Positions 42,764 to 60,603 of a stretch of DNA of 64,000 nucleotides are shown piece by piece. Position 1 is the stretch's first letter. The number at the start of each line of letters is the position of its first letter. The stretch is taken from the NCBI GenBank assembly GCA_012837645.1, contig DUQU01000063.1:1-64000 (forward strand). Direction: 5' to 3'. Origin of the DNA: Acholeplasmataceae bacterium (lineage in GTDB: Bacteria > Bacillota_I > Bacilli_A > Acholeplasmatales > UBA5453). Position numbers and translations under genes: made by a program. The notes beneath the pieces were generated by a model. The model did not search any database, was not told the origin of the DNA, and saw nothing but the letters and a program-made list of their open reading frames with translations.

Positions 42764-43810
42764 ATGGAAAAAGTAAAGATTTTAATCTGGGGTTTCGGTG
42801 CTATGGGGCGCGGGATGGCGGAAATGTTATTAACAAAAAAAGGAGTTGAGATCGTTGCTATTTGCGATATTGACCCTTTAGTCGTTAATAAAGGCTTTTT
42901 AGATGTCCTTAATGTTAAAACTCAACATGAAAATGTCATTATTAGCGACAATATCGATGAGTTGTTAGCGGATAATAAAATTGATTTAGTGTTGCTGACA
43001 ACCGATAGCTTTACTAAAAATAATTATCCTAAAATAGTAAAAATAGTGGAAAAGGGTATTAACGTTATTAGCACGGCTGAAGAAATGGCTTATCCTTATG
43101 TTAATCAACCAGAATTAGCTAAAAAGATGGATGTTTTAGCTAAAAAACACCAAGCTACTATTTTAGGAACAGGTATTAATCCTGGTTTTGTGATGGATTT
43201 ATTAGTAGTTGCTTTAACAGGTGCGATGATGGATGTTAAAGAAATAGAAGCGAAAAGAGTTAACAGTTTAAGTCCCTTTGGGAAAACAGTAATGAGCGAA
43301 CAAGGGGTAGGACTTAGCTTAGAAGAATATCAAGAAAAAATGAAAAAGGGTGCGTTAGCAGGCCATGTCGGTTTTAAAGAAAGCGTTCATTTAATCGCGG
43401 AAGGTTTAGGAGTAAAATTAACTGATTTTAAAGAACAAATGGCTCCCATTATCACCAAGGTTGATTTAAAAAGCAAATATGGTGAAGCTAAAAAAGGTCA
43501 TTTAGCAGGTATTGATATGAAAGCGCAAGGCTTTCTAAACAACCAGGCTTTTATTAAAATGATTCACCCTCAACAAATAGAGCCTGAAAAGTCAGGCATT
43601 AATACTGGTGATTATATTACATTAAAAGGCACTCCTAATATTAAAATGAGCATTAATCCTGAAATTAGTGGAGGGGTGGGGACGATTGCGGTATGCGTAA
43701 ATATGATCCCCCACGTTATCAATGCGAAGCCGGGCTTAAAAACAATGCTTGACCTTCCTGTTCCGAGAGCGATTTTAGGAGATATGAGAGAGTTAATTGA
43801 AAAAGATTAA
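42764..43810 (+). CDS. ord: 2,4-diaminopentanoate dehydrogenase
   Basis: Third step of oxidative ornithine breakdown: deaminates (2R,4S)-2,4-diaminopentanoate to 2-amino-4-ketopentanoate with NAD(P). 348 residues. Rossmann start ILIWGFGAMGRGMAEMLL, DIDPLVV, LLTTDSFTKNN, GTGINPGFVMDLLVVALTG. The fold is DapB-like, and the family call rests on its position ahead of ortA-ortB-oraS-oraE, the order known from Clostridium sticklandii. AGGGGA lies before ATG 42764. It is the first gene of the ornithine operon. Confidence 0.93.
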   Translation: MEKVKILIWGFGAMGRGMAEMLLTKKGVEIVAICDIDPLVVNKGFLDVLNVKTQHENVIISDNIDELLADNKIDLVLLTTDSFTKNNYPKIVKIVEKGINVISTAEEMAYPYVNQPELAKKMDVLAKKHQATILGTGINPGFVMDLLVVALTGAMMDVKEIEAKRVNSLSPFGKTVMSEQGVGLSLEEYQEKMKKGALAGHVGFKESVHLIAEGLGVKLTDFKEQMAPIITKVDLKSKYGEAKKGHLAGIDMKAQGFLNNQAFIKMIHPQQIEPEKSGINTGDYITLKGTPNIKMSINPEISGGVGTIAVCVNMIPHVINAKPGLKTMLDLPVPRAILGDMRELIEKD

Positions 43811-43825
43811 AAAGGAGTTAAAAAG

Positions 43826-44125
43826 ATGATTTTAAAAGGAAGTTTTGTAGAAATAGAAACAGTTATTTTAACCAAAGAAGAAAGGGCTCCTCAAGTACCC
43901 GTGGACACTAAAAGCGTGCCACTTTTAATGAGGTCAAAAGGCATTCTACTTAACAGTGCTAAACTAGGAGATGAAGTAGTGATAAAAACAATTACTGGGA
44001 GAAAGGAAAAAGGAATTTTAAAAGAACTTAATCCTGCTTATTTACATCATTATGGTAATTTCGTCGCTGAACTCTTAAAGGTCAAAGAAATTATAAAAGT
44101 AGAAACGGGTGATTTAAATGAATGA
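43826..44125 (+). CDS. ortA: 2-amino-4-ketopentanoate thiolase, alpha subunit
   Basis: 99 residues; works with OrtB to split 2-amino-4-ketopentanoate with CoA into acetyl-CoA and D-alanine. Typical OrtA pieces: ERAPQVPVDTKSVPLLMRSKG, GDEVVIKTITGRKEKG, LNPAYLHHYGNFVAEL. AAAAGGAG precedes ATG 43826. It overlaps ortB by eight bases, so subunits are made together. Confidence 0.92.
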   Translation: MILKGSFVEIETVILTKEERAPQVPVDTKSVPLLMRSKGILLNSAKLGDEVVIKTITGRKEKGILKELNPAYLHHYGNFVAELLKVKEIIKVETGDLNE

Positions 44126-45509
44126 TAATTCTTATTTAGCGGTAATGGAAAGAAGAAACAAAATCATTAAAGATTCGATGCAAATAAATTACCAGGATTT
44201 TGAAAACGAAGGTGTCGGTTTTGACTATGAAAAGATGATGGCGAGCACTGGTTTTACTTTAGCAGAAGTAGAAAAAATTCAACTAGAAAATAGAGTAGGA
44301 AAGACGCCACTCGTAGAACTTAAAAATCTTTCTAAATATGCTCGTAAATTCGCACCTAAAGGTCATGGAGCACGTATATTTATTAAAGATGAAGCAAACA
44401 ATTTAAGTGGTTCTTTTAAAGCGAGAAGGGCTGCTGTAAGCGTTTATCAGGCTAAAAGGTTAGGATATAAAGGAGTTATTGCAGCGACTAGTGGTAATTA
44501 TGGAGCGGCGGTAGCTGCGATGGCCGCAAGACTAGGTCTAAAAGCAATTATTGTTCAAGAAGTTTATGATAGTGAATTAATTGGACAACCAGAAATTATT
44601 GAAAAGGCGAGAGCTTGCGAGGCTTATGGAGCTGAAGTCGTTAGGTTAACAGTGGGGCCAGAACTTTTTTATAAGTTTTTACTTTTATTAGAAGAAACAG
44701 GTTACTTTAATGCTTCATTATATTCACCTTATGGAATTTTAGGCGTAGAAACTTTAGGAAAAGAAATTGCCTTAGAAGCTTTAAATAATTATGGTAAATA
44801 CCCTGAAGTTGTAATCGCCACTAACGCTGGTGGTGGTAATTTAACAGGTACTGCGAGAGGGCTATTAAAAGCTGGTGCGACTAAGACAAAAGTATACGCT
44901 GCTAGTGTTAATTTAACAGGGCTTCATATGGCTAGCGATAAAGACTTTAATAAAAAATCATTTACTACTGGTCATACAGGCTTTGGAATTCCTTACTCTA
45001 CTTTTCCTGATAGAAGCGATGTTCCTAGAAGCGCCGCGAGGCCGATGAGATATTTAGATCGTTATTTACTTATCAATCAAGGAAGTGTCTTTTTTATTAC
45101 CGAAGCTTTAGCATTGTTAGAAGGGATGGAAAGAGGCCCAGCAGGAAATACTAGCTTAGCCGTCGCTTTTAAATTAGCCCAAGAAATGAAGGAAGATGAA
45201 ATTATTGTTGTTCAAGAAAGCGAATATACAAGTGCAGGCAAACATCTTAATGCCCAACTTGATTTTGCTAAAAAAAGAGGAATAAAATTAGAATTTGGCA
45301 ATCCTTTATTAGAAATACCAGGCAAAAACATTATTTTTCCAAAAAGTGCCAAAGAAATAGCTTATCAAGAATTAAATTTAGATCGATTAAGACTATCTTA
45401 CTTAAAACATTACAGAGGGGTTACTTTAACTAAAAAAGATAAAGAGTATTTAAAGGATGAATTAAAGTTAACGGAAACTGAAATTGAGGATTTGGTGAAA
45501 AAGCTATGA
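44118..45509 (+). CDS. ortB: 2-amino-4-ketopentanoate thiolase, beta subunit (PLP)
   Basis: 463-residue PLP enzyme of fold type II (threonine-synthase-like). The PLP lysine is Lys101 in NLSGSFKARRA, and the phosphate loop is TNAGGGNLTGTARGLL. With OrtA it forms the CoA-dependent thiolase. Its product D-alanine may explain the alanine racemase gene further down. The start overlaps ortA, and the end overlaps oraS by four bases. Confidence 0.94.
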   Translation: MNDNSYLAVMERRNKIIKDSMQINYQDFENEGVGFDYEKMMASTGFTLAEVEKIQLENRVGKTPLVELKNLSKYARKFAPKGHGARIFIKDEANNLSGSFKARRAAVSVYQAKRLGYKGVIAATSGNYGAAVAAMAARLGLKAIIVQEVYDSELIGQPEIIEKARACEAYGAEVVRLTVGPELFYKFLLLLEETGYFNASLYSPYGILGVETLGKEIALEALNNYGKYPEVVIATNAGGGNLTGTARGLLKAGATKTKVYAASVNLTGLHMASDKDFNKKSFTTGHTGFGIPYSTFPDRSDVPRSAARPMRYLDRYLLINQGSVFFITEALALLEGMERGPAGNTSLAVAFKLAQEMKEDEIIVVQESEYTSAGKHLNAQLDFAKKRGIKLEFGNPLLEIPGKNIIFPKSAKEIAYQELNLDRLRLSYLKHYRGVTLTKKDKEYLKDELKLTETEIEDLVKKL

Positions 45510-45868
45510 AAGCGAGAAAAGACGATTTTGAAAAAAGAAGAAAAGAATTAGCAAAATTAACAGATGAAGAATTAAAGACTTATTTTTTTAAATTAACCGA
45601 TCAATTATTGGACCCAATTATGGAGTTAGCATATAATTACACCTCGCCTTCAATCGAAAGAAGTGTATTACTAAGGATGGGTTTTTCTAGTTTAGAAGCG
45701 AAGGTGATTACAGAAAAATTAAAAGACGCTAATTTGCTATCTTATGGAGCAGGTCACGTTGTTTATTTATACGCTAAAAAGGTTAAAAAAGAGATTATTG
45801 AGGCGGGTCGCTTATTAGCTAAGGGAGAAGGGATAGCCCTAATGAAAGAGGTTTTCGAAAATGATTAA
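45506..45868 (+). CDS. oraS: D-ornithine 4,5-aminomutase, small subunit
   Basis: 120 residues, the usual OraS size. Family parts seen: DEELKTYFFKLTDQLLDPIMELAYNYTSPSIERSVLLRMGF split around position 40, and YGAGHVVYLYAKKV. Partner of OraE in the B12- and PLP-dependent 1,2-shift of the 5-amino group. Overlaps both ortB and oraE, so expression is coupled. Confidence 0.93.
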   Translation: MKARKDDFEKRRKELAKLTDEELKTYFFKLTDQLLDPIMELAYNYTSPSIERSVLLRMGFSSLEAKVITEKLKDANLLSYGAGHVVYLYAKKVKKEIIEAGRLLAKGEGIALMKEVFEND

Positions 45869-48056
45869 AGCAAATCAAAAATTAGATATTAGAAAACTTT
45901 TAGAAGATTTAGAAAACTACGAACCGAAAAGAAGAGGTTGGGTGTGGCGTCAAAAAACTCCTCAAAAAATCGGCCCTTTTAACTATTGTGAAGTAAGCCC
46001 CTCTTTAAAAAACTATCAACCACTTCCAAGCGCGAGGCATTTAAACAATATCGATCCGCAACCAGAAATGGTTATTACCACAGAAATCGCTTCTGGTCGC
46101 TTTGAGGATGATATTAGAAGGATGAGAATGGCTGCTTATCATGGTGCTGATCATATTATGGTAATTAGAACAGCTGGTCAATCTCACATCGATGGTTTAT
46201 TAGAAGGAACTCCTCAGGGTGTAGGTGGCGTTCCCATTACAAGAAAACAATTAAGAGCGCAAAGAAAAGCTTTAGATATTATCGAAGAAGAAGTAGGAAG
46301 ACCGATTAACTATCATTCTTATGTTTCTGGGGTTGCCGGACCTGAAATAGCGGTCTTATTCGTTGAAGAAGGAGTTAATGGTGCTCATCAAGATCCTCAG
46401 TATAATGTTTTATATCGTAATATTAATAGTTTGAGAAGTTTTGTTGATGCAGCCGAGAGTAAAAAGATAATGGCTTATGGCGGGCTCGCTCAAATCGATG
46501 GTGCTCATAATGCAAACGCTACTGCTCGCGATGCGTGGAAAGTGATGCCAGAATTACTTGTTCAACACGCTATTAACACGAGGATGAGTGAAAGAGTAGG
46601 AATTCCAGCCGATTTAATTTGTTTATCGACGGTGCCTCCAGCGGCGCCTCCAAGTCCAGATCTAAAAATAAATCTTCCTTATGCTTTAGCCTTAAGGGAT
46701 TTTTTTGATAACTATAAAATGCGCGCTCAAATGAATACTAAATATATGGATTCATCAACACGAGAAGCGACAGTTACTCATGTTTTAAACCTTTTAATTT
46801 CTCGTTTAACTAGTGCTGATATCCAAAGTACAATTACGCCTGATGAAGGTAGAAATGTTCCTTGGCATGTTTATAATATTGAAGCTTTAGACACTGCTAA
46901 GCAAGCTTTAGTCGGGATGGATGATTTAAAGGCGATGTTAGAGTTTAAGAAAGACAGTGAGCTTTTTAAAACAAAAAGAGAAATAAAAGAAAGAGCGGTT
47001 TTAATGTTAGAAGAAATTATCGCTATGGGCGGGTATTTTGAAGCGGTCGAGGCCGGAATGTTTGTCGATAGTGGTAATTATCCTGAACGAGTTGGTGATG
47101 GTATTAAAAGAAAAATAGCTGGTGGAATAAGTAGTGATACGATTATAAAAAGAGACTCTAAATATTTAGCTCCAGTTACTGCTCATTATGGTTATAATAA
47201 TGTTTCTCAATATTCTAACACTTCTGATCCAGCCACTTTAATTGGAGGCTCTACTTTTGAAAAAAGAATTAAGATTCAATATATAGATGAACTCGATGAA
47301 ACAGATAATGTTTATTTAAGATTAGCTGAAAAAGAGGATTATCGTAGTGGCCATTTATTAAAACCGGAAGTAGAATGGTTAGCTGATGGGGTTGTAATGG
47401 TTGATCTTTTTTTCCCAACCGATATTAACACCGCGGAAGCGGCGGCCTTAGAAGTCGGTAAAAAAATGAACCTCACTAACGTTGAAGTTATTCATAAAGA
47501 GACGATGCATCCTAGCGAAGGAATAAGAATTCAACTTAAAGGAGTTGTCAATTTTGATATCGATTTAAGAAAACTAAAAGTAGTTGAAAAAGAAGAAAAC
47601 TTAAGTGAAGAAGAAATAACTAATTATTTAAAAAAGCACCATCTTAAAATTATTGCCGGTACTGGTGGTAATGATGAACATAGTGTGGGGATGAGAGAGA
47701 TTTTAGATATTAAGCACGGTGGTTTAGAAAAATACGGTATCGAATTTAATTATTTAGGGACGAGCGTTCCCATTGAAAAGTTCATCGACGCTGCGATTGA
47801 AGAAAATGCAAATGTTGTTTTAATATCGCTTATTATTTCTCATGATGATATTCATTATAAAAACATGCAAAAGCTCCATAATTACGCTATTGAAAAAGGA
47901 GTTAGAGAAAAACTTATTTTGGTGGCTGGTGGTACTCAAGTAACGCCTGAACTAGCTCAAAAATATGGGATGGATCAAGGCTTTGGAAGAGGGACTACAG
48001 GAACTGACATTGCGAGTTTTTTAGTAAAAAGGTTAAAGGAAAAAAATGAAAGTTGA
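45861..48056 (+). CDS. oraE: D-ornithine 4,5-aminomutase, large subunit (B12/PLP)
   Basis: 731 residues. The N-terminal ~600 form the TIM-barrel catalytic part (TEIASGRFEDDIRRMRMAAY, HSYVSGVAGPEIAVLFVEEG, STVPPAAPPSPDLKINLPY). The C-terminal Rossmann B12 domain has the base-off motif DEHSVG (605-610, His607) and LVAGGTQVTPELAQ. This converts D-ornithine to 2,4-diaminopentanoate. The enzyme needs adenosylcobalamin, so the cell must import or salvage B12; no B12 gene or cobalamin riboswitch was seen in the window. Overlaps the MutL-like gene by 11 bases. Confidence 0.95.
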   Translation: MIKANQKLDIRKLLEDLENYEPKRRGWVWRQKTPQKIGPFNYCEVSPSLKNYQPLPSARHLNNIDPQPEMVITTEIASGRFEDDIRRMRMAAYHGADHIMVIRTAGQSHIDGLLEGTPQGVGGVPITRKQLRAQRKALDIIEEEVGRPINYHSYVSGVAGPEIAVLFVEEGVNGAHQDPQYNVLYRNINSLRSFVDAAESKKIMAYGGLAQIDGAHNANATARDAWKVMPELLVQHAINTRMSERVGIPADLICLSTVPPAAPPSPDLKINLPYALALRDFFDNYKMRAQMNTKYMDSSTREATVTHVLNLLISRLTSADIQSTITPDEGRNVPWHVYNIEALDTAKQALVGMDDLKAMLEFKKDSELFKTKREIKERAVLMLEEIIAMGGYFEAVEAGMFVDSGNYPERVGDGIKRKIAGGISSDTIIKRDSKYLAPVTAHYGYNNVSQYSNTSDPATLIGGSTFEKRIKIQYIDELDETDNVYLRLAEKEDYRSGHLLKPEVEWLADGVVMVDLFFPTDINTAEAAALEVGKKMNLTNVEVIHKETMHPSEGIRIQLKGVVNFDIDLRKLKVVEKEENLSEEEITNYLKKHHLKIIAGTGGNDEHSVGMREILDIKHGGLEKYGIEFNYLGTSVPIEKFIDAAIEENANVVLISLIISHDDIHYKNMQKLHNYAIEKGVREKLILVAGGTQVTPELAQKYGMDQGFGRGTTGTDIASFLVKRLKEKNES

Positions 48057-49383
48057 TCTATTAGTAGCGGAAATAGGTAGTACAACAACACTTATAAGTG
48101 CCTTTAATTTAAAAAAAGAAGTAGTCTTTTTAGGGAGAAGCTATGCTAAAACGACGATCGATGACGTTATGATGGGTCTTAATGAGGCCATTGCTAATTT
48201 AAAAAAGCACTTAAAAACAACAACGTTAGAATATCAAGAAATGCTCGCTTCTTCGAGCGCTGCTGGTGGTCTTAGAATGACCGTTCACGGCCTTGTTTAT
48301 GAAATGACTGCTAAGGCTGCTAAAGAAGCTGCTTTAAATGCTGGAGCGAACTTAGATTTAGTTACGGCTGGATTGTTAAGTGCTTCAGATATTGAAAAGA
48401 TTAAATCATTAAAGCCTAATATTATTGTAATTGCAGGTGGTACTAACTATGGAGAAAAGGAAACCGCTTATCAAAACTTATTAAAAGTACTTCCCCTTAA
48501 GATTCCAATTATTTATGCCGGCAATATTAGCAATCATGATAAAATTAAAGATTTAAATAATCCTTTTATAGAGATCGTTGATAATGTTTATCCCCGTTTA
48601 GACGATTTTAATATTATTCCTCTTAGAAAAGCGATCTATCGAGTCTTTTCTAGAAATATTATTCACGCTAAAGGGATGGAAAAAGTTGCTAAAATTATTA
48701 AAGGAAAGATTATTCCAACGCCCGGAGCTGTTATGGACGCTACTTTGTTAGCTGATGAGCTTATTAATGGAGTAGTTACCATCGATGTTGGGGGCGCGAC
48801 TACCGATATTCATTCTGTTGTTAGTCCTCAAGAAGAATATGCAATTTATAGTGAAGGAGAACCGCGTTTTAAAAGAACTGTTGAAGGAGATTTGGGAGTT
48901 TTTTTGAATCGTGAAAAAGTGGTTTCAAAATTTAAAGAAAACCAATTAGAAGAATTAGTTCAACTTAACAAGAATGAAATTAGAGAAATTATTATTAAGG
49001 AACCTTTTATTCCTAAAACCATTAAAGGAGCAGAAATTATTAGTGCCCTTACTAAGAAGTGTTTAGAGTTAGCTTGTGATCGTCATGTTGGCGATTTAAA
49101 AAGAATTTATACTAGTAATGGTATTAAAATAATTCCTGAGGGTAAAGATTTGTCGTTAGTGAAGTTGATTGCTTTAACGGGTGGCGCCCTAATAAATAAC
49201 GAAGATGCAATAACGATGGTTAAAAACTATCTTAATAAAAGTAAAACAAAGTTAGTGCCCCAAGGAAAAGTTAAAATTCTTAAAGATCATGATTACCTAT
49301 TTTCCTCAATTGGAGTGATTTCCCATTATTATCCCGAAGAAGCGCAAGTGTTACTTAAAAAGACATTAAGGTGGGAGGATTGA
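48046..49383 (+). CDS. MutL/GlmL-family putative aminomutase-reactivating protein
   Basis: 445 residues with an ASKHA (actin-like ATPase) fold: first phosphate loop EIGSTTTLISAF near the N-terminus and a second IDVGGATTDIHSV about residue 247. Such MutL/GlmL proteins accompany adenosylcobalamin mutases and are thought to exchange damaged cofactor. In ornithine clusters a homologue sits between oraE and orr, as here. Overlaps oraE by 11 bases and is one base from the racemase gene. Confidence 0.88.
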   Translation: MKVDLLVAEIGSTTTLISAFNLKKEVVFLGRSYAKTTIDDVMMGLNEAIANLKKHLKTTTLEYQEMLASSSAAGGLRMTVHGLVYEMTAKAAKEAALNAGANLDLVTAGLLSASDIEKIKSLKPNIIVIAGGTNYGEKETAYQNLLKVLPLKIPIIYAGNISNHDKIKDLNNPFIEIVDNVYPRLDDFNIIPLRKAIYRVFSRNIIHAKGMEKVAKIIKGKIIPTPGAVMDATLLADELINGVVTIDVGGATTDIHSVVSPQEEYAIYSEGEPRFKRTVEGDLGVFLNREKVVSKFKENQLEELVQLNKNEIREIIIKEPFIPKTIKGAEIISALTKKCLELACDRHVGDLKRIYTSNGIKIIPEGKDLSLVKLIALTGGALINNEDAITMVKNYLNKSKTKLVPQGKVKILKDHDYLFSSIGVISHYYPEEAQVLLKKTLRWED

Positions 49384-49384
49384 G

Positions 49385-50437
49385 ATGTATCCAAAATTAA
49401 TAATCGACTTAAAAAAGTATTATCATAATCTTAATAAAATGATTGAAATGACTCGCTTAAATGAACTTTCTTTAGCTGTTGTAAGTAAAGTGTTTTTAGC
49501 TGAACAACCTTTTATAGACGTTATCAATAAAACAACTGTTGAGTATCTCGCTGATTCTCATTTAAGTAATTTAAAGAAGATGAAAACAAATAAAAAGAAA
49601 ATGTTTTTAAGAATTGCTCAGTTAAGTGAAGTTGAAGAAGTGGTTGAGGTTGCCAATATTAGCTTACAATCTGAACTTACAACAATCAAAGCACTTAATA
49701 AAGCAGCTAAAAATAATAATAAAGTTCATGAAATTATATTAATGTTTGATTTAGGTGATTTAAGAGAAGGTATTTATTATGAGGACTCTTATTTAAAACT
49801 AGTTGAAGAAATATTAACTTTTAATAATATTAAACTATTAGGGATTGGAACTAATTTAACTTGTTATGGTGGGGTTATTCCTAGCCTTGAAATTTTAAAG
49901 CGTTTAGAAGTAATAAAGAGTACTATTGAAACAAAATTTAAACTAAAATTAACTCTTATAAGTGGTGGTAATTCTTCTAGTATTTTCTTATTAGAAAAAG
50001 GCAAACTACCAAAATTTATTAATAATCTTCGTATTGGGGAGGCACTTGTTTTAGGGAGAGAAACCGCCTATGGCAATAAAATTAAAGGTTTTTATGATGA
50101 TGTTTTCTTATTGAAAGCTAGTATTGTAGAAATAAAGAAAAAACCATCATTACCCGATGGAGAAACTGGGATGGATGCCTTTGGAAAGAAAGTAATAATT
50201 AAGGACCAAGGAAAACAAAGAAGAGCGATTCTAGCAATCGGTAAACAGAGTGTCGATAAAGATGATTTAATTACTCTTGATAAGAGTGAAATTATCGGAG
50301 CTAGTAGCGACCATTTAATTATCGACATTAAAGATCAAGATTATCAAATCGGTGACGTCTTAACTTTTAAACTAAGATATGGTGGTGTTTTAAGTTTAAT
50401 GACGTCTCCATATGTGAGGAAGAGTTATGAAAAATAG
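49385..50437 (+). CDS. orr: Ornithine racemase
   Basis: Fold-III PLP racemase of 350 residues converting L- to D-ornithine, the substrate of OraSE. PLP Lys35 lies in LAVVSKVFLAE, and ISGGNSSSIFLLEKG and NNLRIGEALVLGRE are visible family parts. It differs from ordinary alanine racemase (shorter loop before the Lys, no AYGHG). Position after oraSE and mutL supports the ornithine role. Stop overlaps the next racemase by 11 bases. Confidence 0.9.
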   Translation: MYPKLIIDLKKYYHNLNKMIEMTRLNELSLAVVSKVFLAEQPFIDVINKTTVEYLADSHLSNLKKMKTNKKKMFLRIAQLSEVEEVVEVANISLQSELTTIKALNKAAKNNNKVHEIILMFDLGDLREGIYYEDSYLKLVEEILTFNNIKLLGIGTNLTCYGGVIPSLEILKRLEVIKSTIETKFKLKLTLISGGNSSSIFLLEKGKLPKFINNLRIGEALVLGRETAYGNKIKGFYDDVFLLKASIVEIKKKPSLPDGETGMDAFGKKVIIKDQGKQRRAILAIGKQSVDKDDLITLDKSEIIGASSDHLIIDIKDQDYQIGDVLTFKLRYGGVLSLMTSPYVRKSYEK

Positions 50438-51503
50438 TTTTAGGAAAACATGGTTAGAAATAAACCTGGTCAATCTTTATAAAAATTACGAACTCGCTTT
50501 AAAAACAGTCGCGCCTAAAAAGGTTATCCCGGTTGTAAAGGCGAATGCTTATGGACATGGTGTGCTTGCGGTGATGGAATATTTGATTAGTCGTGGGGTT
50601 GATGTTTGTGCGGTTTCGTTATTAGAAGAAGCCTTACATTTAAGAAAACACTTTAAAGATTTAAAAATTATTATTTTAGGAGCGGTTTTAAAAGAAGATT
50701 TAGCTGTTATTTCTAAATATAATCTCGATATGACGATTAACGATGAAGAAATGTTAAAAGCAGTTTTAAAGTTTGATAGGCCTCTTAATTGTCATTTGAA
50801 AGTTGATACTGGAATGGCTAGATACGGCATTATTGAAAGCGATAGAATTATTAAAGCAACAACCGAGTTAACTAAAAATCCGCTGATCGATTTAGTTGGT
50901 ATTTATACCCATTTAGCAATCGTTGATGAAAATGAGAGTTATTTGGATAAACAACTTAAAAAGATGGAAAAGATTGTTGCGAGTCTTAAAGAAAAGCCAC
51001 CCTACATTCATATTTCCAGTTCCTCGGCTATTTTCACGAAAGAGAAAGCTTTAGATTATACTACCCATGTGCGTCTTGGAATTTCCTTATATGGACTATC
51101 TATTAATCCTAAAACTCCACCATTATATCCCGTCATGAAGCTTTTTACCACTGTTACTCAAATTAGACTATTAAAGCCTGGTGATTGTGTTGGGTATGGT
51201 GCTGATTATTGTCCAGTAAAGCCTGAATTTATTGCTGTATTACAAATTGGTTATGGAGATGGTTTTTTAAGAAGAAATAAAAATTCTTTTGTAGAAATTA
51301 ACAATAAACGTTATCAATTAGTGGGCAAAATTTGTATGGATGCTTGTTTTGTATTAGTTGATGAAACAATTAAAACCGGTGATATCGTAACAGTTTTTGG
51401 TAATTTAATTACAGTTGATGAAGTCGCTGATTATAATGAAACGATCAATTATGAAATAGTCACTACAATGAGTTTGAGAATCGAAAGAAGATATCTAAAA
51501 TAG
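50427..51503 (+). CDS. alr: Alanine racemase
   Basis: 358 residues with the classical alanine-racemase pattern: PLP Lys38 in VVKANAYGHG and the second catalytic base (Tyr) in DCVGYGADY; C-terminal domain includes LVGKICMDACFVLV. Alr normally supplies D-alanine for peptidoglycan. Here it is inside the ornithine operon, whose thiolase releases D-alanine, so conversion of that product to L-alanine for deamination is a good alternative. Overlaps orr by 11 bases. Confidence 0.93.
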   Translation: MKNSFRKTWLEINLVNLYKNYELALKTVAPKKVIPVVKANAYGHGVLAVMEYLISRGVDVCAVSLLEEALHLRKHFKDLKIIILGAVLKEDLAVISKYNLDMTINDEEMLKAVLKFDRPLNCHLKVDTGMARYGIIESDRIIKATTELTKNPLIDLVGIYTHLAIVDENESYLDKQLKKMEKIVASLKEKPPYIHISSSSAIFTKEKALDYTTHVRLGISLYGLSINPKTPPLYPVMKLFTTVTQIRLLKPGDCVGYGADYCPVKPEFIAVLQIGYGDGFLRRNKNSFVEINNKRYQLVGKICMDACFVLVDETIKTGDIVTVFGNLITVDEVADYNETINYEIVTTMSLRIERRYLK

Positions 51504-52526: not shown

Positions 52527-52832
52527 ATGCGAATTACAAAACATCCGATTTTAGTCTTTCCAGAAAAGAAAAAAGTCGAGTTTATTTTTGAAGGGAAAAA
52601 GGTAAGCGGTTACGAAGGCGATACAATCGCCTCAGCTTTACACGCTCTTGGAATTATGACTTTAAGTTACTCAATTAAAGCGAAAAGGCCGCGTGGATTT
52701 TATTGTGCGATCGGTAATTGCTCAGCTTGCCAAATGGTCGTCAACGGCGTTCCTAATGTTAAAACATGTATTACTCCTTTAGAGCCAGAAATGGTAGTTT
52801 TTAGACAAGAGGATAAGGGGGTCCTTATATGA
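52527..52832 (+). CDS. 2Fe-2S subunit (HcnA-like) of proline-dehydrogenase-type complex
   Basis: 101-residue ferredoxin of the plant/[2Fe-2S] type: Cys60, Cys65, Cys68 (CAIGNCSAC) and Cys81. Such HcnA-like subunits sit in dye-linked proline dehydrogenases, hydrogen cyanide synthases and octopine/nopaline oxidases. It is the first gene of a five-gene flavin/FeS operon that ends in a glutamate-semialdehyde dehydrogenase, which points to proline. Overlaps the next gene by four bases. Confidence 0.85.
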   Translation: MRITKHPILVFPEKKKVEFIFEGKKVSGYEGDTIASALHALGIMTLSYSIKAKRPRGFYCAIGNCSACQMVVNGVPNVKTCITPLEPEMVVFRQEDKGVLI

Positions 52833-53920
52833 GAACAGTTGAACTTGTTATTGTTGGCGGAGGACCGGCAGGGCTTTGTGCAGCGAAGTTAGCTTTAGAG
52901 GCTGGCTTAGAAGTAGTAATTATTGACCGCGCAGATAAGTTGGGTGGTCAACTTATTAAACAAACGCACAAATTTTTTGGCTCCAAAGCTCAATATGCAA
53001 AAATGCGTGGTATTGATATTGCTAAACTTTTAATTAATGAAATTGAAAACCATCAAAACTTAGAAATTTTCACTAGCACTACCGTAGTCGGTTTATATCC
53101 GGATTTAGTGTTAACAATTTATGATCAAAAGAAGTACCAAAAGATAAAGGCAAAAAGAGTAATTATCGCCACTGGGGCTAGTGAGAAAGTGCTCGCTTTT
53201 GAAAATTCCGATTTACCGGGAATTTATGGTGCTGGAGCGGTTCAAACTTTGATGAATCTTTATGGTGTTTTACCAGGAAAAGAAGTTTTAATGGTTGGCA
53301 GTGGTAATATCGGCCTAATTGTCACTTATCAATTACTTCAAGCTGGTGTAAAAGTTAAAGCGATTTTGGAAGCAGGCTCAACAATTGGAGGATATAAGGT
53401 TCACGCTGCCAAAATCCGGAGATTAGGAATACCGATTATAACTAATACAACCGTTTCTAAAGCACTAGGAACGAGTAAAATTGAAGCGGTAGAAATTGTT
53501 AAACTTGATGAAAATTGGAATAAGATTAGCGGTAGTGAAGAAATAATTAAAACCGATGCGCTTTGTTTATCGGTGGGGCTTTCCCCATTACATCAACTCC
53601 TTTCAATGGTCGGTGCTCAAGTTAAATATATTAGTGAATTAGGTGGTTTCGTAGCAAGGGTTAATGACAATTTTGAATCGACAGTTAAAGGTGTTTATGT
53701 TGCTGGTGATGCTGTCGGAATTGAAGAAGCTTCGGCAGCGATGATGGAAGGATATTTAAGTGGCTTGCATGTCGCTGATTCTTTAAATAAGCCACATCCT
53801 GAACAAGAAAATTTACTTAAGTATTATCAAGACGAGTTAGAACTTTTAAGAAAAGGACCTTTTGGTTTAAAAACAAAAATTGGAATTGAAAAATTAAAAG
53901 TAGGTGAAAGTAATGCTTAA
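52829..53920 (+). CDS. FAD-dependent oxidoreductase, HcnB/PDH-alpha-like (without FeS extensions)
   Basis: 363 residues. The N-terminal Rossmann FAD site is IVGGGPAGLCAAK, the second dinucleotide site (MVGSGNIGLIVTYQLL) and GVYVAGDAVG near the C-terminus are clear. It would carry FAD and electrons to the FeS proteins. In larger relatives the same chain continues with a C-terminal BFD-type FeS segment; here the FeS parts are separate genes. Electrons may come from the DAO-type subunit at 54660. NAD(P)-linked reductase function cannot be excluded. Confidence 0.87.
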   Translation: MRTVELVIVGGGPAGLCAAKLALEAGLEVVIIDRADKLGGQLIKQTHKFFGSKAQYAKMRGIDIAKLLINEIENHQNLEIFTSTTVVGLYPDLVLTIYDQKKYQKIKAKRVIIATGASEKVLAFENSDLPGIYGAGAVQTLMNLYGVLPGKEVLMVGSGNIGLIVTYQLLQAGVKVKAILEAGSTIGGYKVHAAKIRRLGIPIITNTTVSKALGTSKIEAVEIVKLDENWNKISGSEEIIKTDALCLSVGLSPLHQLLSMVGAQVKYISELGGFVARVNDNFESTVKGVYVAGDAVGIEEASAAMMEGYLSGLHVADSLNKPHPEQENLLKYYQDELELLRKGPFGLKTKIGIEKLKVGESNA

Positions 53921-54392
53921 TAAAACAGGAATACCAACTAAATCGCAAACTTTAAGTAGATTTCCTCAAGAAAATATTTTAATTAAACCAAAAGCGGTAA
54001 TCGAATGTTTTGAAGATATTCCTTGTAATCCTTGCGAGACAGCTTGTCCTTTTGGAGCGATTACAATCGGCCCTAACATTAATATTCAACCGCAATTAGA
54101 CTTTGATAAGTGTACTGGTTGTACTTTATGTGTTTCTAGTTGTCCTGGTTTGGCGATTTTTGTCGTTCAAATTAAAGGAGATCAGGCCCTTTTTAAAATT
54201 CCTTATGAATTTTTACCCAAGCCTCAAAAAGGTGAAATTTGGGATGGCGTTAATAGAAAGGGCGAAGTAATTTGTGATGCTTTAATTGAAGGTGTTAGAG
54301 AAACAAATAAAATGGATCACACTGCGATTGTTACGGCCCGTGTTCCGAAAGAGTTTCTACATGATTTTATTACGGTGAGGGAAAGAAAATGA
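53913..54392 (+). CDS. 4Fe-4S ferredoxin-type subunit
   Basis: 159 residues, start ATG 53913 with AGGTG seven bases before; a GTG at 53904 is less well placed. Two 4Fe-4S sets: Cys32/38/41/45 (CFEDIPCNPCETAC) and Cys67/70/73/77 (CTGCTLCVSSCPG). The first set has five residues between its first two cysteines, where two is usual. Probably passes electrons between the flavin subunits. It overlaps the previous gene by eight bases and the next by four. Confidence 0.87.
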   Translation: MLNKTGIPTKSQTLSRFPQENILIKPKAVIECFEDIPCNPCETACPFGAITIGPNINIQPQLDFDKCTGCTLCVSSCPGLAIFVVQIKGDQALFKIPYEFLPKPQKGEIWDGVNRKGEVICDALIEGVRETNKMDHTAIVTARVPKEFLHDFITVRERK

Positions 54393-54670
54393 ATGATGAT
54401 AAAATAATTATTTGTCGTTGTGAGGATGTTACTTTAAAAGACATTAAAGACTTACTTCAACAAGGTTACACTAATTTTGAAGATTTAAAAAGGTTGTTGC
54501 GGGTTGGAATGGGAGCTTGTCAAGGTAATACTTGTGGGCAGTTAATCCAGCGTGAGATTGCTAAATTTTTAAATAAATCAATTGAAGAGATTCCGCTTCA
54601 AAAAGTGCGCCCACTTATTAGTGGCGTCCCTCTTGAAAAGATTAGTGAGGCTAGTAAAGATGAAAGTTAA
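54389..54670 (+). CDS. BFD-like 2Fe-2S protein
   Basis: 93 residues with Cys9, Cys11, Cys44 and Cys49 (ICRCEDVT, GACQGNTC): the bacterioferritin-associated ferredoxin/NifU-middle type. It equals the FeS tail that is fused to HcnB-type subunits in many other organisms. It should bind one 2Fe-2S cluster inside the complex. It overlaps its neighbours on both sides. Confidence 0.87.
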   Translation: MNDDKIIICRCEDVTLKDIKDLLQQGYTNFEDLKRLLRVGMGACQGNTCGQLIQREIAKFLNKSIEEIPLQKVRPLISGVPLEKISEASKDES

Positions 54671-55805
54671 TTGTTTAATTATCGGTGCGGGCATTAGTGG
54701 TGTTAGTATCGCTTATAATTTGGCTAAAAAAGGAATGAAAAACATTCATGTTGTTGATAAAGGTTATTTCACAAGCGGTGCCACTGGTCGTTGTGGGGCG
54801 GGCGTAAGACAACAATGGGCCTCAAAAAGAAATTGTATTTTAACGAAAAAAAGTATGGAGTTTTTTGAAAGAGCGAAAAAAGAACTAGCCTATGAAGGTG
54901 ATTTAGAGTTTAAACAAGAAGGCTATTTAATATTAGCTATAAATGAAGAAGAACATAAACAGTTTACTAAAAATGTTAAACTTCAAAATAGCCTCGGTAT
55001 TCCCTCAAAACAAATTACTAAGGAAGAGGCTTTAAAAATTGTTCCTCACTTAAATAAAGATGCTTTTATAAGCGCGACCTTTTGTAATACTGATGGTCAT
55101 CTTAATCCATTTAAAATGACAGAGGCTTATTATTTAGCAGCGAAAAGATTAGGAGTAACTTTTTCCTTTTTTGAAGAAGTGGTTGAAATGAAAAGAGAAG
55201 GGGAAAAAATCACCAATGTTACAACTACTAAAAATAATTACCAAACAGAAATAGTAGTTAACGCTGCTGGTGGTTACGCTCATGAAGTGGGGATGATGGC
55301 AGGCGTTGATATTCCGGTTTATGCAGAAAACCATGAAATTTTAGTAACGGAACCGGTAGAAAAGATGCAAGGTCCGATGGTTATTTCTTTTGCGAAAAAC
55401 ATTTATTGCCAGCAAGTGCCTCACGGATCTTTTATTATGGGAAGAAGCGATCCTAATGTTCCCAAAGATCATAATATTGAATCAAGTTGGCAATTTTTAG
55501 ATGAAATGTCTAAAACAGTAGCGGATATTTTGCCTCAAGTTAGTAAACTAAGAGTAATAAGACAATGGGGTGGCTCTTACAATATGTCGCCTGACCGGGA
55601 GCCTATTATAAGTGGCACAGATGAAGTTGTTAATTTTTATATGGCTTGTGGTTTTAGTGGACATGGATTTATGATTGCCCCAATGACTGGATTATTGCTT
55701 TCTGAACTAATAATGGGAGAAAAAACAACCTTAGAAATGGATTCTTTTCATTTAAAGAGGTTTAAAGATAAAGATTTTGTAATAACAGAGAAATCGGTCG
55801 TATAG
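54660..55805 (+). CDS. FAD-dependent oxidoreductase of the DAO family (proline dehydrogenase catalytic subunit-like)
   Basis: 381 residues from ATG 54660 (GAGG 10 bases upstream); the longer frame to 54582 runs antiparallel in sense through the BFD gene and lacks family homology. FAD site [28 protein letters not shown] and [15 protein letters not shown] near the end are typical of HcnC / PDH-beta / sarcosine-oxidase-like enzymes. It is the likely amine-oxidising subunit: L-proline to pyrroline-5-carboxylate. Hydroxyproline or another secondary amine is a real alternative. The next gene would take the product to glutamate. Confidence 0.85.
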
Positions 55806-55818
55806 AAGGGAGAAAAAA

Positions 55819-57375
55819 ATGGCAATTTATAGTTATAAAACAGAACCATTAACTGATTTTAGTAAGACAGAAAATGTTTCAAAGTATCAAGAGGGGTTAA
55901 AAATTGTAAAGTCATATTTAGGCAAAACATACCCCTTAATAATTGGTGGGAAAAGAATTGAAAGTGAGAAAAAAATGGTTTCAATTAACCCAGCAAACCA
56001 TCAAGAGGTGGTAGGAACGATTTATCAAGCGGGTCTTAAAGAGGCTGAAGAAGCGATGCAAATAGCATTAAAGACTTTTCAAAGTTGGAAAAATGTCTCC
56101 CCCGAAGTAAGGGCTGATGTATTATTTAAATCAGCGGCGATTTTAAGAAGACGTAAGTTTGAGTTTGCCGCACTAATGACGGTTGAGGCTGGTAAACCAT
56201 GGCCAGAAGCGGATGCGGATGTGGCTGAAGCAATTGACTTTTTAGAGTATTATGGTAGGCAAATGCTTAAAATAGCTACAGTAGATAAAGAAGTATTATC
56301 AAGAAGAAATATTGAAAGAAACGAATACCACTATATTCCTTTAGGAGTGGGAGCGATTATTTCACCTTGGAATTTTCCTTTAGCAATTTTTGCTGGAATG
56401 ACAACTGCAGCGGTTGTTACTGGTAATACTGTTTTAGTAAAACCAGCTTCCACTACTCAAGTGGTTGCTTATAAATTTGTTGAAGTTTTAGAAGAGGCCG
56501 GATTACCAAAAGGAGTAGTAAACTTTGTACCTGGCTCTGGAGCTGTCATTGGTGAATACTTAGTTAATCACCCCAAACTTCGTTTTGTTTCTTTTACGGG
56601 TTCTAAGGCTGTTGGTGCTTCAATTTATGAAAAAGCCGCTAAAGTTCAAAAAGGACAAATTTGGCTAAAACGTGTAATTGCAGAAATGGGTGGAAAAGAT
56701 GCAATTATCGTCGATGATAATGTCGATTTAGATTTAGCTGCTGATGCCATCGTTAAATCGGCTTTTGGTTTTTCAGGCCAAAAATGTTCGGCTTGCTCTA
56801 GAGCAATAATTCATGAAAACGTCTATGATGAAGTGGTTAAAAAGATAACCGCTTTAACAAAAACATTAAAGGTTGGAAATCCTCAAGAATTAGAAACCTT
56901 TGTAGGACCTGTTAATGACATTAACGCTTTTAAAAAGATAACTGGTTATATTGAGATTGGCAAAAAAGAAGGCAGATTAGTAGCTGGCGGAAAAGCTAGT
57001 GATAAAGTAGGTTACTTTATTGATCCTACTGTTTTTGTTGACCTTGATCCTAAAGCAGTCATTATGCAAGAAGAAATATTTGGTCCAGTTTTAGCAGTTA
57101 CTAAAGTAAAAGATTTTGAAGAAGCAATTGAAGTTGCAAATAATACTGAATATGGATTAACAGGAGCTGTAATTTCCAATAATAGAGAGCATTTAGAAAT
57201 GGCGAGAAGAGATTTTCATGTCGGAAATTTATATTTTAACCGCAAATGTACTGGTGCGATTGTTGGTTATCAGCCTTTTGGTGGTTTTAATATGAGTGGA
57301 ACCGACTCTAAAGCTGGCGGACCAGATTATTTAATATTACATATGCAAGGGAAGACGATCTCAGAAGCTTTCTAA
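55819..57375 (+). CDS. rocA: L-glutamate gamma-semialdehyde dehydrogenase (RocA/PruA type)
   Basis: 518 residues, the size of Bacillus RocA. It oxidises glutamate-5-semialdehyde (from pyrroline-5-carboxylate) to glutamate with NAD. Catalytic Cys323 is in [13 protein letters not shown] and the general base Glu289 in [29 protein letters not shown] is a RocA-typical segment. GAAGGGAG lies before ATG 55819. It completes the proline-to-glutamate route begun by the five preceding genes and is followed after one base by the PP-loop gene. Confidence 0.95.
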
Positions 57376-57376
57376 T

Positions 57377-58774
57377 ATGAAATATTATTTACAAACAAGA
57401 TGGCAACTAGAAAATAATAAACTAGAATATTATGGTCTAAGAAATAAGAAAAACTTGTTTAAAAACAGTCTTAAATTAACCGAAAATCAAGTTAAAATAG
57501 TTAAAGAATTACCAAAAGAATTAACAAATCAAGAAATAAGAAAAGTAAGAAGGTTAATTAATACACAAATAGTAAAAAAAGCCGCATTAAAAACGATTCC
57601 TACTTCAATTGAAGAGGCTCGTTTTTGTCAGGGATGTGTTGCTAATGACTTTATTATTCCTGGCATTGAGTTTGATGAAAAGGGCTTTTGCCCTTTATGT
57701 CAAACAGCTGATTTACACGATAAATTGATTAGTGTTCTACCGGTTAAAAACATTATTTCTAGAGCTGAAAATAGCGATTTTGATATTGGACTTTTTTATA
57801 CTGGCGGCAAAGATTCAACTTACTTATTGTATTATTTAAGCAAAGTTTTAAAATTAAGAGTTATCGCGATGACATGGGAAATACCGTTTATGTCCAAGTC
57901 TGCTAAAAGCAGTATTGAAAACGCCAAAAGAAAACTAGATAATGTCAAGTTTGTAACTAAAAAAACTAGTGATGAAGAGTTAAGAAAAATATATAAAAAA
58001 CTTTACCTACTTAATGAGAACACTTGCGCTTGTCCCTCATTAGCGTATCTGCTTTTTTATCCTTTATTAGTTAAATATAAAGTTCCTTATTTTGTGGGAG
58101 GAAACGAACCTGTGCAAATGTTAGGTCTTTATTATAATGGCATGGCCCCAAAGATTGCTTACCGTTTTTCAAATAGTAAACTAGCGCATTTTTTAATTAA
58201 TGTGGGAAGAGTTATTACTTTTAGAAGGCCTTATAAAAGCGGGCAACTGCATACTATTATGACAATGAAACAACTAGCATATGGAGATAATTGGCTAAAA
58301 AGAATTTCCTCATATAAAAACGAGCTAATTGAAAATGTTGTTTTAGCAATTAATGAAGTTCCGGAACTTTTAATACCTTTTAAAAAAGCAATTAAAGAAT
58401 CGATAAAAACAGGAAAGATACCTCGTTTTATTCATATCGATTTGGCCTTTATTGCAGGTGGTAATTATCATTGGGAAACTATTAAAGATTTAATTATTGA
58501 AGAATGTGGATGGGTGGCGCCTGAAAAGATTAATCAAGGGCTTCATACTAGTTGTACCATTGAAAGTTGTAAAGAATATAGTCAATTTCAACGCTTCTAT
58601 TATCAAAGGAGTAAAATGATTCCTTTTAGTTCTTTAGAAATTGCTTTGGCGAGCAAAACTAAAAGTATTACTAAAGAAGAAGCGATTAAAGAATTAAAAG
58701 AAGTGTTAGGATTTTCTTTAACGGAAATTAAAGAATGCCAAATTATGAAAGATTACTTAAGGATAAGTTTGTGA
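57377..58774 (+). CDS. PP-loop ATPase with CxxC...CxxC module, N-acetyl-sugar-amidotransferase-like
   Basis: 465 residues. The ATP pyrophosphatase loop is YTGGKDSTYLLYYL (GGKDS at 143-147). A zinc- or FeS-like module precedes it: Cys84/87 (FCQGCVAND) and Cys105/108 (FCPLCQ). A CAC (217/219) and a CTIESC (393/398) pair lie later, an arrangement also found in thiouridine synthetases such as TtcA/TtuA. GGNEP near 233 recalls WbpG/PseA-type sugar amidotransferases. Adenylation of a substrate and transfer of N or S is likely; the substrate is unknown. It starts one base after rocA and overlaps the next gene by four bases, so it is part of the proline operon transcript. No sugar-nucleotide gene is near. 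Confidence 0.75.
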   Translation: MKYYLQTRWQLENNKLEYYGLRNKKNLFKNSLKLTENQVKIVKELPKELTNQEIRKVRRLINTQIVKKAALKTIPTSIEEARFCQGCVANDFIIPGIEFDEKGFCPLCQTADLHDKLISVLPVKNIISRAENSDFDIGLFYTGGKDSTYLLYYLSKVLKLRVIAMTWEIPFMSKSAKSSIENAKRKLDNVKFVTKKTSDEELRKIYKKLYLLNENTCACPSLAYLLFYPLLVKYKVPYFVGGNEPVQMLGLYYNGMAPKIAYRFSNSKLAHFLINVGRVITFRRPYKSGQLHTIMTMKQLAYGDNWLKRISSYKNELIENVVLAINEVPELLIPFKKAIKESIKTGKIPRFIHIDLAFIAGGNYHWETIKDLIIEECGWVAPEKINQGLHTSCTIESCKEYSQFQRFYYQRSKMIPFSSLEIALASKTKSITKEEAIKELKEVLGFSLTEIKECQIMKDYLRISL

Positions 58775-59481
58775 ATGCAGTAATTTATTTTTCTCCTACT
58801 GGAGGAACAGAAAAAATTGCAAAATACGCTGCTAATTATTTAAACACTTCTTTAATTAGTCTTACTACTTTCAAAGAGATTGAAAGTTTTTCTAAATTAA
58901 AAAGGTTTAATTATCTTGTTTTTTGTTTTCCTGTTTATAGTGAAAATATCACAACGCCTTTAAAAAAAATAATCGCTAATATAAATGCTAATTATTTAAT
59001 CCTTTTAGCTACTTATGGGAAAATGGGAACTGGCAATATCTTAAATGAAGTAAAAAAGAAAGTTAAAGCGGCTGTTATCGGCGGTGCTTATATTCCTACT
59101 AAACATACTTATAAAGAATCATCTTATTTTAATGATTATCAAAGTTTAAATGGTTTGTTAAATAAAGTTATTAACAAAGAAGTAAAAGAAATTACTTTTC
59201 CAAAACAAAGAAAACATCTTTTTGCTAGTTTTTTTCCTCATCTAAGAAGTAAGTTAGGTGTTAAAATAATTAGAACAGAGGCTTGTGTTAACTGTGGAAT
59301 ATGTGACGATGAATGCCCTGTTAAAGCGATTAACAATGGTAAAATAAATGCTGATTGTATTCGTTGTTTAAGATGTTACTATAAGTGCCCAAACCAAGGC
59401 TTAGAAGTAAAATATTCTTTCTTTTTAAGGCGGTATTTAAAAAAAGATAAAGTAATTAAATTAATTATTTTCGAAAACTGA
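58771..59481 (+). CDS. Flavodoxin-ferredoxin fusion (EFR1-like)
   Basis: Start set at GTG 58771, overlapping the previous stop by four bases, with AAGGAT before it; the frame to 58735 lies in the PP-loop gene. 236 residues. The N-terminal ~150 form a flavodoxin-like domain (VIYFSPTGGTEKIAKYAANY phosphate loop; TYGKMGTGN), and the end has two 4Fe-4S motifs (CVNCGICDDECPVKAI and CIRCLRCYYKCPNQ). It should carry low-potential electrons. Coupling to the PP-loop gene suggests it reduces that enzyme or its cluster; alternatively it accepts electrons from the proline dehydrogenase. Confidence 0.85.
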   Translation: MNAVIYFSPTGGTEKIAKYAANYLNTSLISLTTFKEIESFSKLKRFNYLVFCFPVYSENITTPLKKIIANINANYLILLATYGKMGTGNILNEVKKKVKAAVIGGAYIPTKHTYKESSYFNDYQSLNGLLNKVINKEVKEITFPKQRKHLFASFFPHLRSKLGVKIIRTEACVNCGICDDECPVKAINNGKINADCIRCLRCYYKCPNQGLEVKYSFFLRRYLKKDKVIKLIIFEN

Positions 59482-59532
59482 AAGTTAATAAAAAAAGAAA
59501 TCTTTTATAATAACTTTAAGGGGGATTTGGTG

Positions 59533-60603
59533 ATGCGAAAAACGATTAGTATAATAGCGTTAATGTTAATTGTGTTAATAACTTTTTCTTGCAAAAAAGA
59601 AGGTGATAAAATGATTGTTAATGGAACGGAGACATTTAAAAGCGAAGAGCTTTTTAGTAATAGAGACAAAGAAACAACAACTAATTTAATTTACAAAAAT
59701 AAATCTATAATAATTGAAGATAATAGTAAGCGTGCTATTTATCAATCGAAAGCAATTGAGATGGAGAGATTTAGCGAACTTGTTTTAAGTTATAATGTTG
59801 AAGATTTAGAAGATGGTAGTTTAGCTTTTTTAGTAGCGGTTGGTGATGGGACTAATTTTGGTGATTTTTACACAATGGCGATTGCGATGACAGACAACAA
59901 TCGTTCTTCATCTACTAATGGAGATGATTATGGAAAAGTCAGTATCGATACTTTAATCAATAAAGATATCAATAATAACTATATTATATTAAGAGCGGTA
60001 TTTAATCCCGGCAAAAATATCAAATTAAAAAATATCACTATCACATCTGTGAGAGAAAATAGTAGCCTTTCTTTTGATGAAAGTAAACTTATTAATAAAA
60101 CACTCGCTGTTACGCCGATATCTCAATTAGATATTCCCAATATAGGAAATATTATTTGTTCTCCCACTTCGGTGACGATGGTACTTGATTATTACGGTTA
60201 TCAATTTTCTCCCGAAGATGTTGCTAAAAAGGTGAAGGATGTGTCCGCTAACATTTATGGTAATTGGACTTTTAATGCCAGCTATCCCGGCAGTTTTAGC
60301 GATTTGATTAGTTATGTTGAGTATATTGATAATTTTGATAAGGTAGTTGATTACATTAAAAATGATATTCCGGTGATATTTTCGATAAAAACAACTGCTA
60401 TTACTGACTTAACAGGTGCGATCATGTCTTATCCGTCAGGGCATCTGGTTGTTTTAATTGGTTTTGAAAAGATTGATGGTAGTTGGTATGGCATCTTTAA
60501 TGATCCCGCTGAATATAGTGCCGATAAGGTGTTAAGAAAATATTCGCTAGAACAAGTTTTAACCGCTTGGCGTCAATATACGTATATAATTATTAAAAAA
60601 TAA
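59533..60603 (+). CDS. Lipoprotein with C39-like peptidase domain
   Basis: 356 residues from ATG 59533 (AAGGGGG eight bases before; GTG and TTG codons just upstream are worse). A signal with lipobox TFSC anchors it outside. Residues ~40-185 look like a beta-rich module without known name. The rest is Peptidase_C39_2-like: candidate catalytic Cys209 in IICSPTSVTMVLDYYG, His in PSGHLVVLIGF and Asp in IFNDPAEYS. It may be a surface cysteine peptidase or a non-catalytic binding protein. TATAAT at 59506-59511 could be its promoter. No secretion ATPase of the bacteriocin type is nearby. Confidence 0.78.
   Translation: MRKTISIIALMLIVLITFSCKKEGDKMIVNGTETFKSEELFSNRDKETTTNLIYKNKSIIIEDNSKRAIYQSKAIEMERFSELVLSYNVEDLEDGSLAFLVAVGDGTNFGDFYTMAIAMTDNNRSSSTNGDDYGKVSIDTLINKDINNNYIILRAVFNPGKNIKLKNITITSVRENSSLSFDESKLINKTLAVTPISQLDIPNIGNIICSPTSVTMVLDYYGYQFSPEDVAKKVKDVSANIYGNWTFNASYPGSFSDLISYVEYIDNFDKVVDYIKNDIPVIFSIKTTAITDLTGAIMSYPSGHLVVLIGFEKIDGSWYGIFNDPAEYSADKVLRKYSLEQVLTAWRQYTYIIIKK

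Follow-up and report, generated by a model that had tools for sequence, protein, structure and literature searches.

A PP-loop ATP pyrophosphatase-like protein with a constant flavodoxin/ferredoxin partner: a possible Fe-S-dependent sulfur insertase in anaerobic Bacillota

Why would a PP-loop ATPase and a flavodoxin-ferredoxin protein be encoded directly behind proline-breakdown genes? The question arises in the window, the whole 64,000-nucleotide stretch of DNA analyzed here (features in Table 1). The initial annotation described the gene arrangement correctly: the GGKDS motif and the four cysteine pairs 84/87, 105/108, 217/219 and 393/398 are all present, and the one-base gap to rocA, the four-base overlap with the partner and the coordinates are as claimed. 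The rocA stop codon TAA occupies 57373-57375, with the PP-loop ATG one base downstream, and the partner's GTG at 58771 overlaps the stop of the PP-loop gene (GTGA). An upstream ATG at 58735 is an alternative partner start that would give 248 aa.

Table 1. Coordinates of the pair and of its sequence features in the window
Feature	Position	Strand	Remarks
PP-loop ATP pyrophosphatase-like enzyme	57377..58774	+	465 aa; without Pfam family name
N-terminal added domain	57377..57622	+	residues 1-82; conserved R8, YYG 18-20, R22, N30; RRE/PqqD-like topology suspected
Tetracysteine zinc ribbon	57626..57700	+	C84/C87 and C105/C108; LpNASAT-like
PP-loop TGGKDS	57800..57817	+	residues 142-147; GGKDS = 143-147
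C217-x-C219	58025..58033	+	first half of proposed Fe-S site
H390-T-S-C393-x4-C398	58544..58570	+	second half of proposed Fe-S site
Flavodoxin-like + 2x[4Fe-4S] protein, EFR1 ferredoxin family	58771..59481	+	236 aa from GTG
Eight ferredoxin cysteines, C172-C206 of partner	59284..59388	+	invariant in 17 aligned partners

A two-gene unit and its inheritance

Whole-genome searches for full-length PP-loop relatives covered 395 genomes of the class and 391 Clostridia genomes. An intact gene was found in 17 of the 395, and in G145, G221 and G324 the gene is broken or reduced to fragments; the Clostridia yielded six intact relatives, one of which (L010) was already in the set. The flavodoxin/ferredoxin gene adjoins the PP-loop gene in all 23 intact homologs, from both Bacilli and Clostridia (one locus, L044, is cut by a contig end). 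The pairing is conserved, so that the lack of conservation which would have spoken against it was not observed. The two genes lie on the same strand in 14 loci (gap -13 to +1) and are convergent in nine. Neighboring ORFs were clustered for the window and the first 20 loci, and no third gene was common to the loci beyond small groups or close relatives.

The partner passes the EFR1 ferredoxin model NF038196 narrowly, at 76.4 bits against a cutoff of 75, and the partners of the relatives score 79.6-92.4 bits. It has in common with the EFR1 family a flavodoxin-like domain plus 2x[4Fe-4S], and differs in forming a pair-specific subgroup that is usually the sole full-length copy per genome. No description of the function of the EFR1 family was found in the open-access literature searched.

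A profile of the partner, run against the 395 genomes, found it in all 17 genomes with an intact PP-loop gene and in G145. The only other matches at E<1e-25 were generic relatives in G119, G129, G155 and G340, at E 3.6e-29 or weaker, whereas complete adjacent partners score E 6e-78 or better. G221 and G324, which hold PP-loop remnants alone, gave no partner match at E<1e-25. The naive hypergeometric value for this co-occurrence is 3e-29, a figure that ignores genome relatedness. In G145, stops or frame changes disrupt both genes of the pair (locus L050, 8888-10651).

Trees of the two proteins are broadly congruent and recover the same main groups: the window with L034/L037, the f11 sets, the f24 pair and a divergent Clostridia trio. 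Convergent loci split from same-strand loci. In both trees, L035 (from G029, of the window's own order) nests inside the f11 sequences, and the window pairs with f19. These placements are consistent with the two genes having moved together by lateral transfer; alternatively, L035, a 9.3 kb contig, may reflect mis-binning. Judged from these sequences, the pair appears to have been gained by transfer and lost together among anaerobic Bacillota. Because they are passed around and lost together, the two genes probably form one machine. Phage or plasmid cargo was considered and rejected, since no relative was found in viral contigs (by a degenerate-pattern scan) or in plasmids.

The proline and ornithine genes upstream

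The initial annotation placed the pair behind a proline-oxidation operon. The adjacency to rocA is real, but the label is too narrow, as the genes upstream also include an arginase, a SoxA/HcnB-like flavoprotein set and genes of ornithine fermentation, among them ornithine racemase. The ornithine-fermentation set, as read from the sequence of this 1.27 Mb genome, spans 42764-51503 and holds a diaminopentanoate dehydrogenase-like gene, thiolase and aminomutase subunits, a MutL-like reactivase and ornithine racemase, followed by alanine racemase; the NCBIfam check of this set covered Orr and Alr only. From 52527 to 57375, a split SoxA/HcnB-like FAD protein with separate 2Fe-2S and ferredoxin ORFs is followed by a DAO-family oxidase and rocA; these genes probably serve the oxidation of proline/hydroxyproline or of D-amino acids. 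L145 and L146 retain the DAO/rocA end together with a small BFD-like protein. Downstream of the pair, a lipoprotein-like ORF of 358 aa (59527-60603), matching no NCBIfam family, may by eye resemble a C39-type peptidase.

A role of the pair in proline or ornithine breakdown, suggested by the single base that separates it from rocA in the window, is extremely improbable. None of the 22 other pair loci adjoins rocA. G029 and G292 carry the pair with no rocA match at E<=1e-100, G002, from the window's family, has rocA with no PP-loop relative, and in G251 the pair and rocA lie on different contigs. G002 and G251 keep the FAD-oxidase/rocA gene order of the window, with the operon ending at rocA, and only in the window's genome does the pair follow it. 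The pair is therefore conserved without rocA, its position by proline-breakdown genes is an accident of one genome, and the neighborhoods reject a proline-pathway role.

Fold, cysteines and N-terminal domain of the PP-loop protein

The Pfam scan assigned no family to the PP-loop protein. Among NCBIfam models it matched TIGR03573 (WbuX) below threshold, scoring 65.7 bits where the cutoff is 203.2 and aligning over residues 82-246 only, and the other scanned members of the pair family likewise fall far under this cutoff. A plain sugar amidotransferase was rejected on that ground. The AlphaFold2 model (pLDDT 90.9, pTM 0.89) found LpNASAT (8wex) as its top Foldseek match, with E 3.5e-8 and a TM of 0.47 by query, followed by TtuA with [4Fe-4S], YcfA and LarE. 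YcfA is an ATP-binding PP-loop protein known as a 6-thioguanine enzyme. The mix of sugar-amidotransferase and thiouridine-synthetase traits noted at the outset is borne out by the matches to LpNASAT, TtuA and LarE, and no one-to-one match to a characterized sugar amidotransferase was found.

With LpNASAT, WbpG and WbuX (PDB 8WEX, PMC10607449), its best structural match, the protein has in common the PP-loop core and an N-terminal CxxC...CxxC zinc ribbon. The LpNASAT tetracysteine motif, CXXCXn[GN]XCXXC, is a zinc ribbon (PMC10607449), and C84xxC87...G103xC105xxC108, invariant in the 23 homologs, fits this motif. TGGKDS is also invariant in the 23, with Thr in place of the Ser of the NASAT PP-loop SGGXDS. 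In contrast to these enzymes, the window protein adds an N-terminal domain, C398 and the constant flavodoxin/ferredoxin partner, and is not encoded in a surface-sugar cluster.

All eight paired cysteines are invariant in 23 of 23 homologs, down to about 39% identity, which is far beyond chance; C454 is invariant only in the 20 closer members. The cysteines were sorted by aligning the family with nine looser paralogs, themselves weakly similar to NcsA/TtuA models. C217 and C219 align with a CxxC motif of the paralogs (CxC in L067), and C393 with the cysteine of an HxxC motif present in all nine, while C398 and the N-terminal ~80 residues are missing from all of them. The PP-loop Asp lies 71 residues from the Cys in the pair family and 70 in the paralogs, and the second and third Cys are mostly 174-175 residues apart in the former and 128-143 in the latter. 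No flavodoxin/ferredoxin gene was seen in the 10 kb examined beside three of the paralogs (L067-L069). C217, C219 and C393 probably occupy the place where enzymes of the TtcA/TtuA/NcsA/CtaC type keep a three-Cys [4Fe-4S] site, and we infer a cluster there. C398 is perhaps a fourth or catalytic ligand of this putative cluster.

Two of the paralog loci lie in settings of their own. In L067 (4508-5743), the PP-loop paralog directly follows a 1496-residue NRPS-like ORF and carries CxC and HTSC motifs, making it a candidate CtaC-like thioamide synthetase. In L069 (3117-7305), a WbuX-like PP-loop protein (191 bits) lies near E1/ThiF-like, ketosynthase-like and carrier-protein-like ORFs, a putative biosynthetic cluster whose members were named by eye.

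CtaC, the Fe-S thioamide synthetase of closthioamide (PMC6772006), also belongs to the PP-loop (AANH) superfamily, has a three-Cys Fe-S motif placed similarly to the proposed site and occurs in anaerobes. Its reported residues are D77, C154, C157 and C284 (PMC6772006), a spacing near that of the looser paralogs, with a second-to-third Cys spacer of 127 against 174 in the window protein. Judged by these published residues, the PP-loop protein departs from CtaC in having C-x-C and a longer spacer; the added domain and the redox partner are further differences. CtaC acts on a carrier protein and belongs to an antibiotic cluster, whereas the pair loci hold no carrier or NRPS genes. TtuA, TtcA, NcsA and [4Fe-4S] LarE have the PP-loop and, probably, a three-Cys [4Fe-4S] site in common with the protein, TtuA being the second fold match, but differ in added domains, substrates and Cys spacing and have no dedicated electron donor.

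The N-terminal domain, modeled alone from the 23 sequences (pLDDT 85.8), contains strands at 9-12, 15-18 and 31-33 (and 2-5), helices at 36-43 and 51-56, and a short turn at 58-60. RiPP recognition elements (RREs) are defined by three strands followed by three helices (PMC12710340) and resemble DNA-binding helix-turn-helix domains (PMC7470986). A resemblance of the modeled topology to an RRE is suspected, and we treat it as a lead only. A Foldseek search with the domain returned nothing significant (best E 2.9), with 15 of the 23 weak matches falling on RRE-bearing RiPP enzymes or PqqD (MadB, NisB, MibB, TbtB, ThcOx, McbBCD, MccB, PqqD). An hhalign comparison with 21 PqqD proteins gave the expected register at P 0.26, which is not significant, and the Pfam scan of the domain returned no PqqD match. 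Isolated, weak matches to DUF3294 and a rhabdovirus nucleoprotein were treated as chance. Within 2.5 kb, no precursor-like small ORF is common to distant loci.

A possible mechanism and its alternatives

PP-loop enzymes adenylate an oxygen and then replace it. The proposal of an FeS-dependent adenylating enzyme with its own reductase remains the best reading of this anatomy, with the cluster and the activity both putative. We tentatively propose that the pair uses ATP to insert sulfur (or amide nitrogen), probably with the help of a [4Fe-4S] cluster and with an electron donor of its own, and favor sulfur insertion aided by the partner, at somewhat less than an even chance. The PP-loop protein would use ATP to adenylate a carbonyl or amide oxygen of the substrate, and the activated oxygen would be replaced, most likely by sulfur from a [4Fe-4S] cluster on C217, C219 and C393. 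The partner would supply electrons, for example to reduce persulfide to cluster-bound sulfide or to maintain the cluster in an active state, and the substrate, which may be a peptide or protein, would be bound by the N-terminal domain. What the computation establishes is the conservation of the pair, the invariance of the cysteines, the class of fold and the joint inheritance of the genes, whereas the cluster, the sulfur chemistry, the flow of electrons and the substrate are proposed from these.

Sulfur insertion is favored because of the CtaC precedent, the three-Cys clusters, the reductant need of LarE and the co-inherited flavodoxin/ferredoxin. CtaC, a PP-loop superfamily member whose Fe-S motif has three Cys, installs a thioamide in a peptide bound to a carrier (PMC6772006). 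In NcsA, TtuA and LarE the cluster sits on three Cys and its free iron binds sulfur (for LarE, PMC9283937), and in LarE an additional reductant is presumed necessary for converting persulfide to [4Fe-5S] (PMC9283937). An aminotransferase class V gene, of the cysteine desulfurase class, is present in the window's genome. Against sulfur insertion stand the C-x-C in place of C-x2-C, the far greater distance of the third Cys (174 residues), and a closest solved structure that is an amidotransferase, not a thiolase. Additionally, no conserved sulfur-carrier or desulfurase gene lies beside the pair. To our knowledge, the thiolases of this Fe-S PP-loop class are described as non-redox enzymes, and none has a flavodoxin/ferredoxin dedicated to it.

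N-acetyl sugar amidotransferases are encoded in O-antigen or surface-sugar clusters with a glutaminase partner. An amidotransferase like WbuX, WbpG or LpNASAT would activate an N-acetyl or other amide with ATP and let ammonia replace the oxygen, yielding an amidine, and the partner would serve a later or separate redox step. We consider this unlikely: the NASAT enzymes are the best curated-model and structural relatives and have the zinc tetracysteine in common with the pair family, but all scanned members miss the TIGR03573 cutoff by far, no glutaminase/HisF-like gene or surface-sugar cluster is conserved alongside the pair, and an amidotransferase role does not explain why the enzyme is strictly paired with a redox protein. 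Slightly less likely still is a redox enzyme in which flavodoxin/ferredoxin electrons, passing through the cluster of the PP-loop protein, reduce the adenylated substrate. A dedicated, co-inherited carrier that combines a flavodoxin domain with 2x[4Fe-4S] fits such a reaction, and C398, as a possible fourth Cys, would permit an electron-transfer cluster; we know, however, of no PP-loop enzyme that reduces an adenylated substrate. It seems improbable that the pair is an accessory thiolase of tRNA, akin to TtcA/TtuA/NcsA and equipped with its own electron donor. The three-Cys position appears to be the same, and the looser paralogs lean weakly towards the NcsA/TtuA models; yet the patchy distribution and the decay in several genomes are unlike a core tRNA modification, and no known RNA-binding domain convincingly matches the N-terminal domain.

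Within the preferred reading of ATP-dependent sulfur or amide-nitrogen insertion, the substrate could conceivably be a ribosomal peptide or cellular protein encoded elsewhere, in which the Fe-S PP-loop enzyme, with its RRE-like domain and own electron carrier, would install a thioamide or amidine; we regard this more specific version as doubtful.

The enzyme class is a known one. What sets the pair apart as a new variant is its unvarying redox partner, together with C398 and the N-terminal domain. No paper describing it was found in the open-access full-text literature. It is a small two-gene enzyme system in which the PP-loop ATPase was never found intact without its dedicated electron carrier. 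The co-inherited reductase offers a direct way to ask about the source of the reductant, which the LarE proposal left open. If the extra domain binds peptides, the pair would represent a class of enzyme new to gut anaerobes, one that modifies peptides or proteins; if the peptide-thioamide reading is true, it would also be a route to peptide thioamides that needs neither YcaO/TfuA nor carrier proteins.
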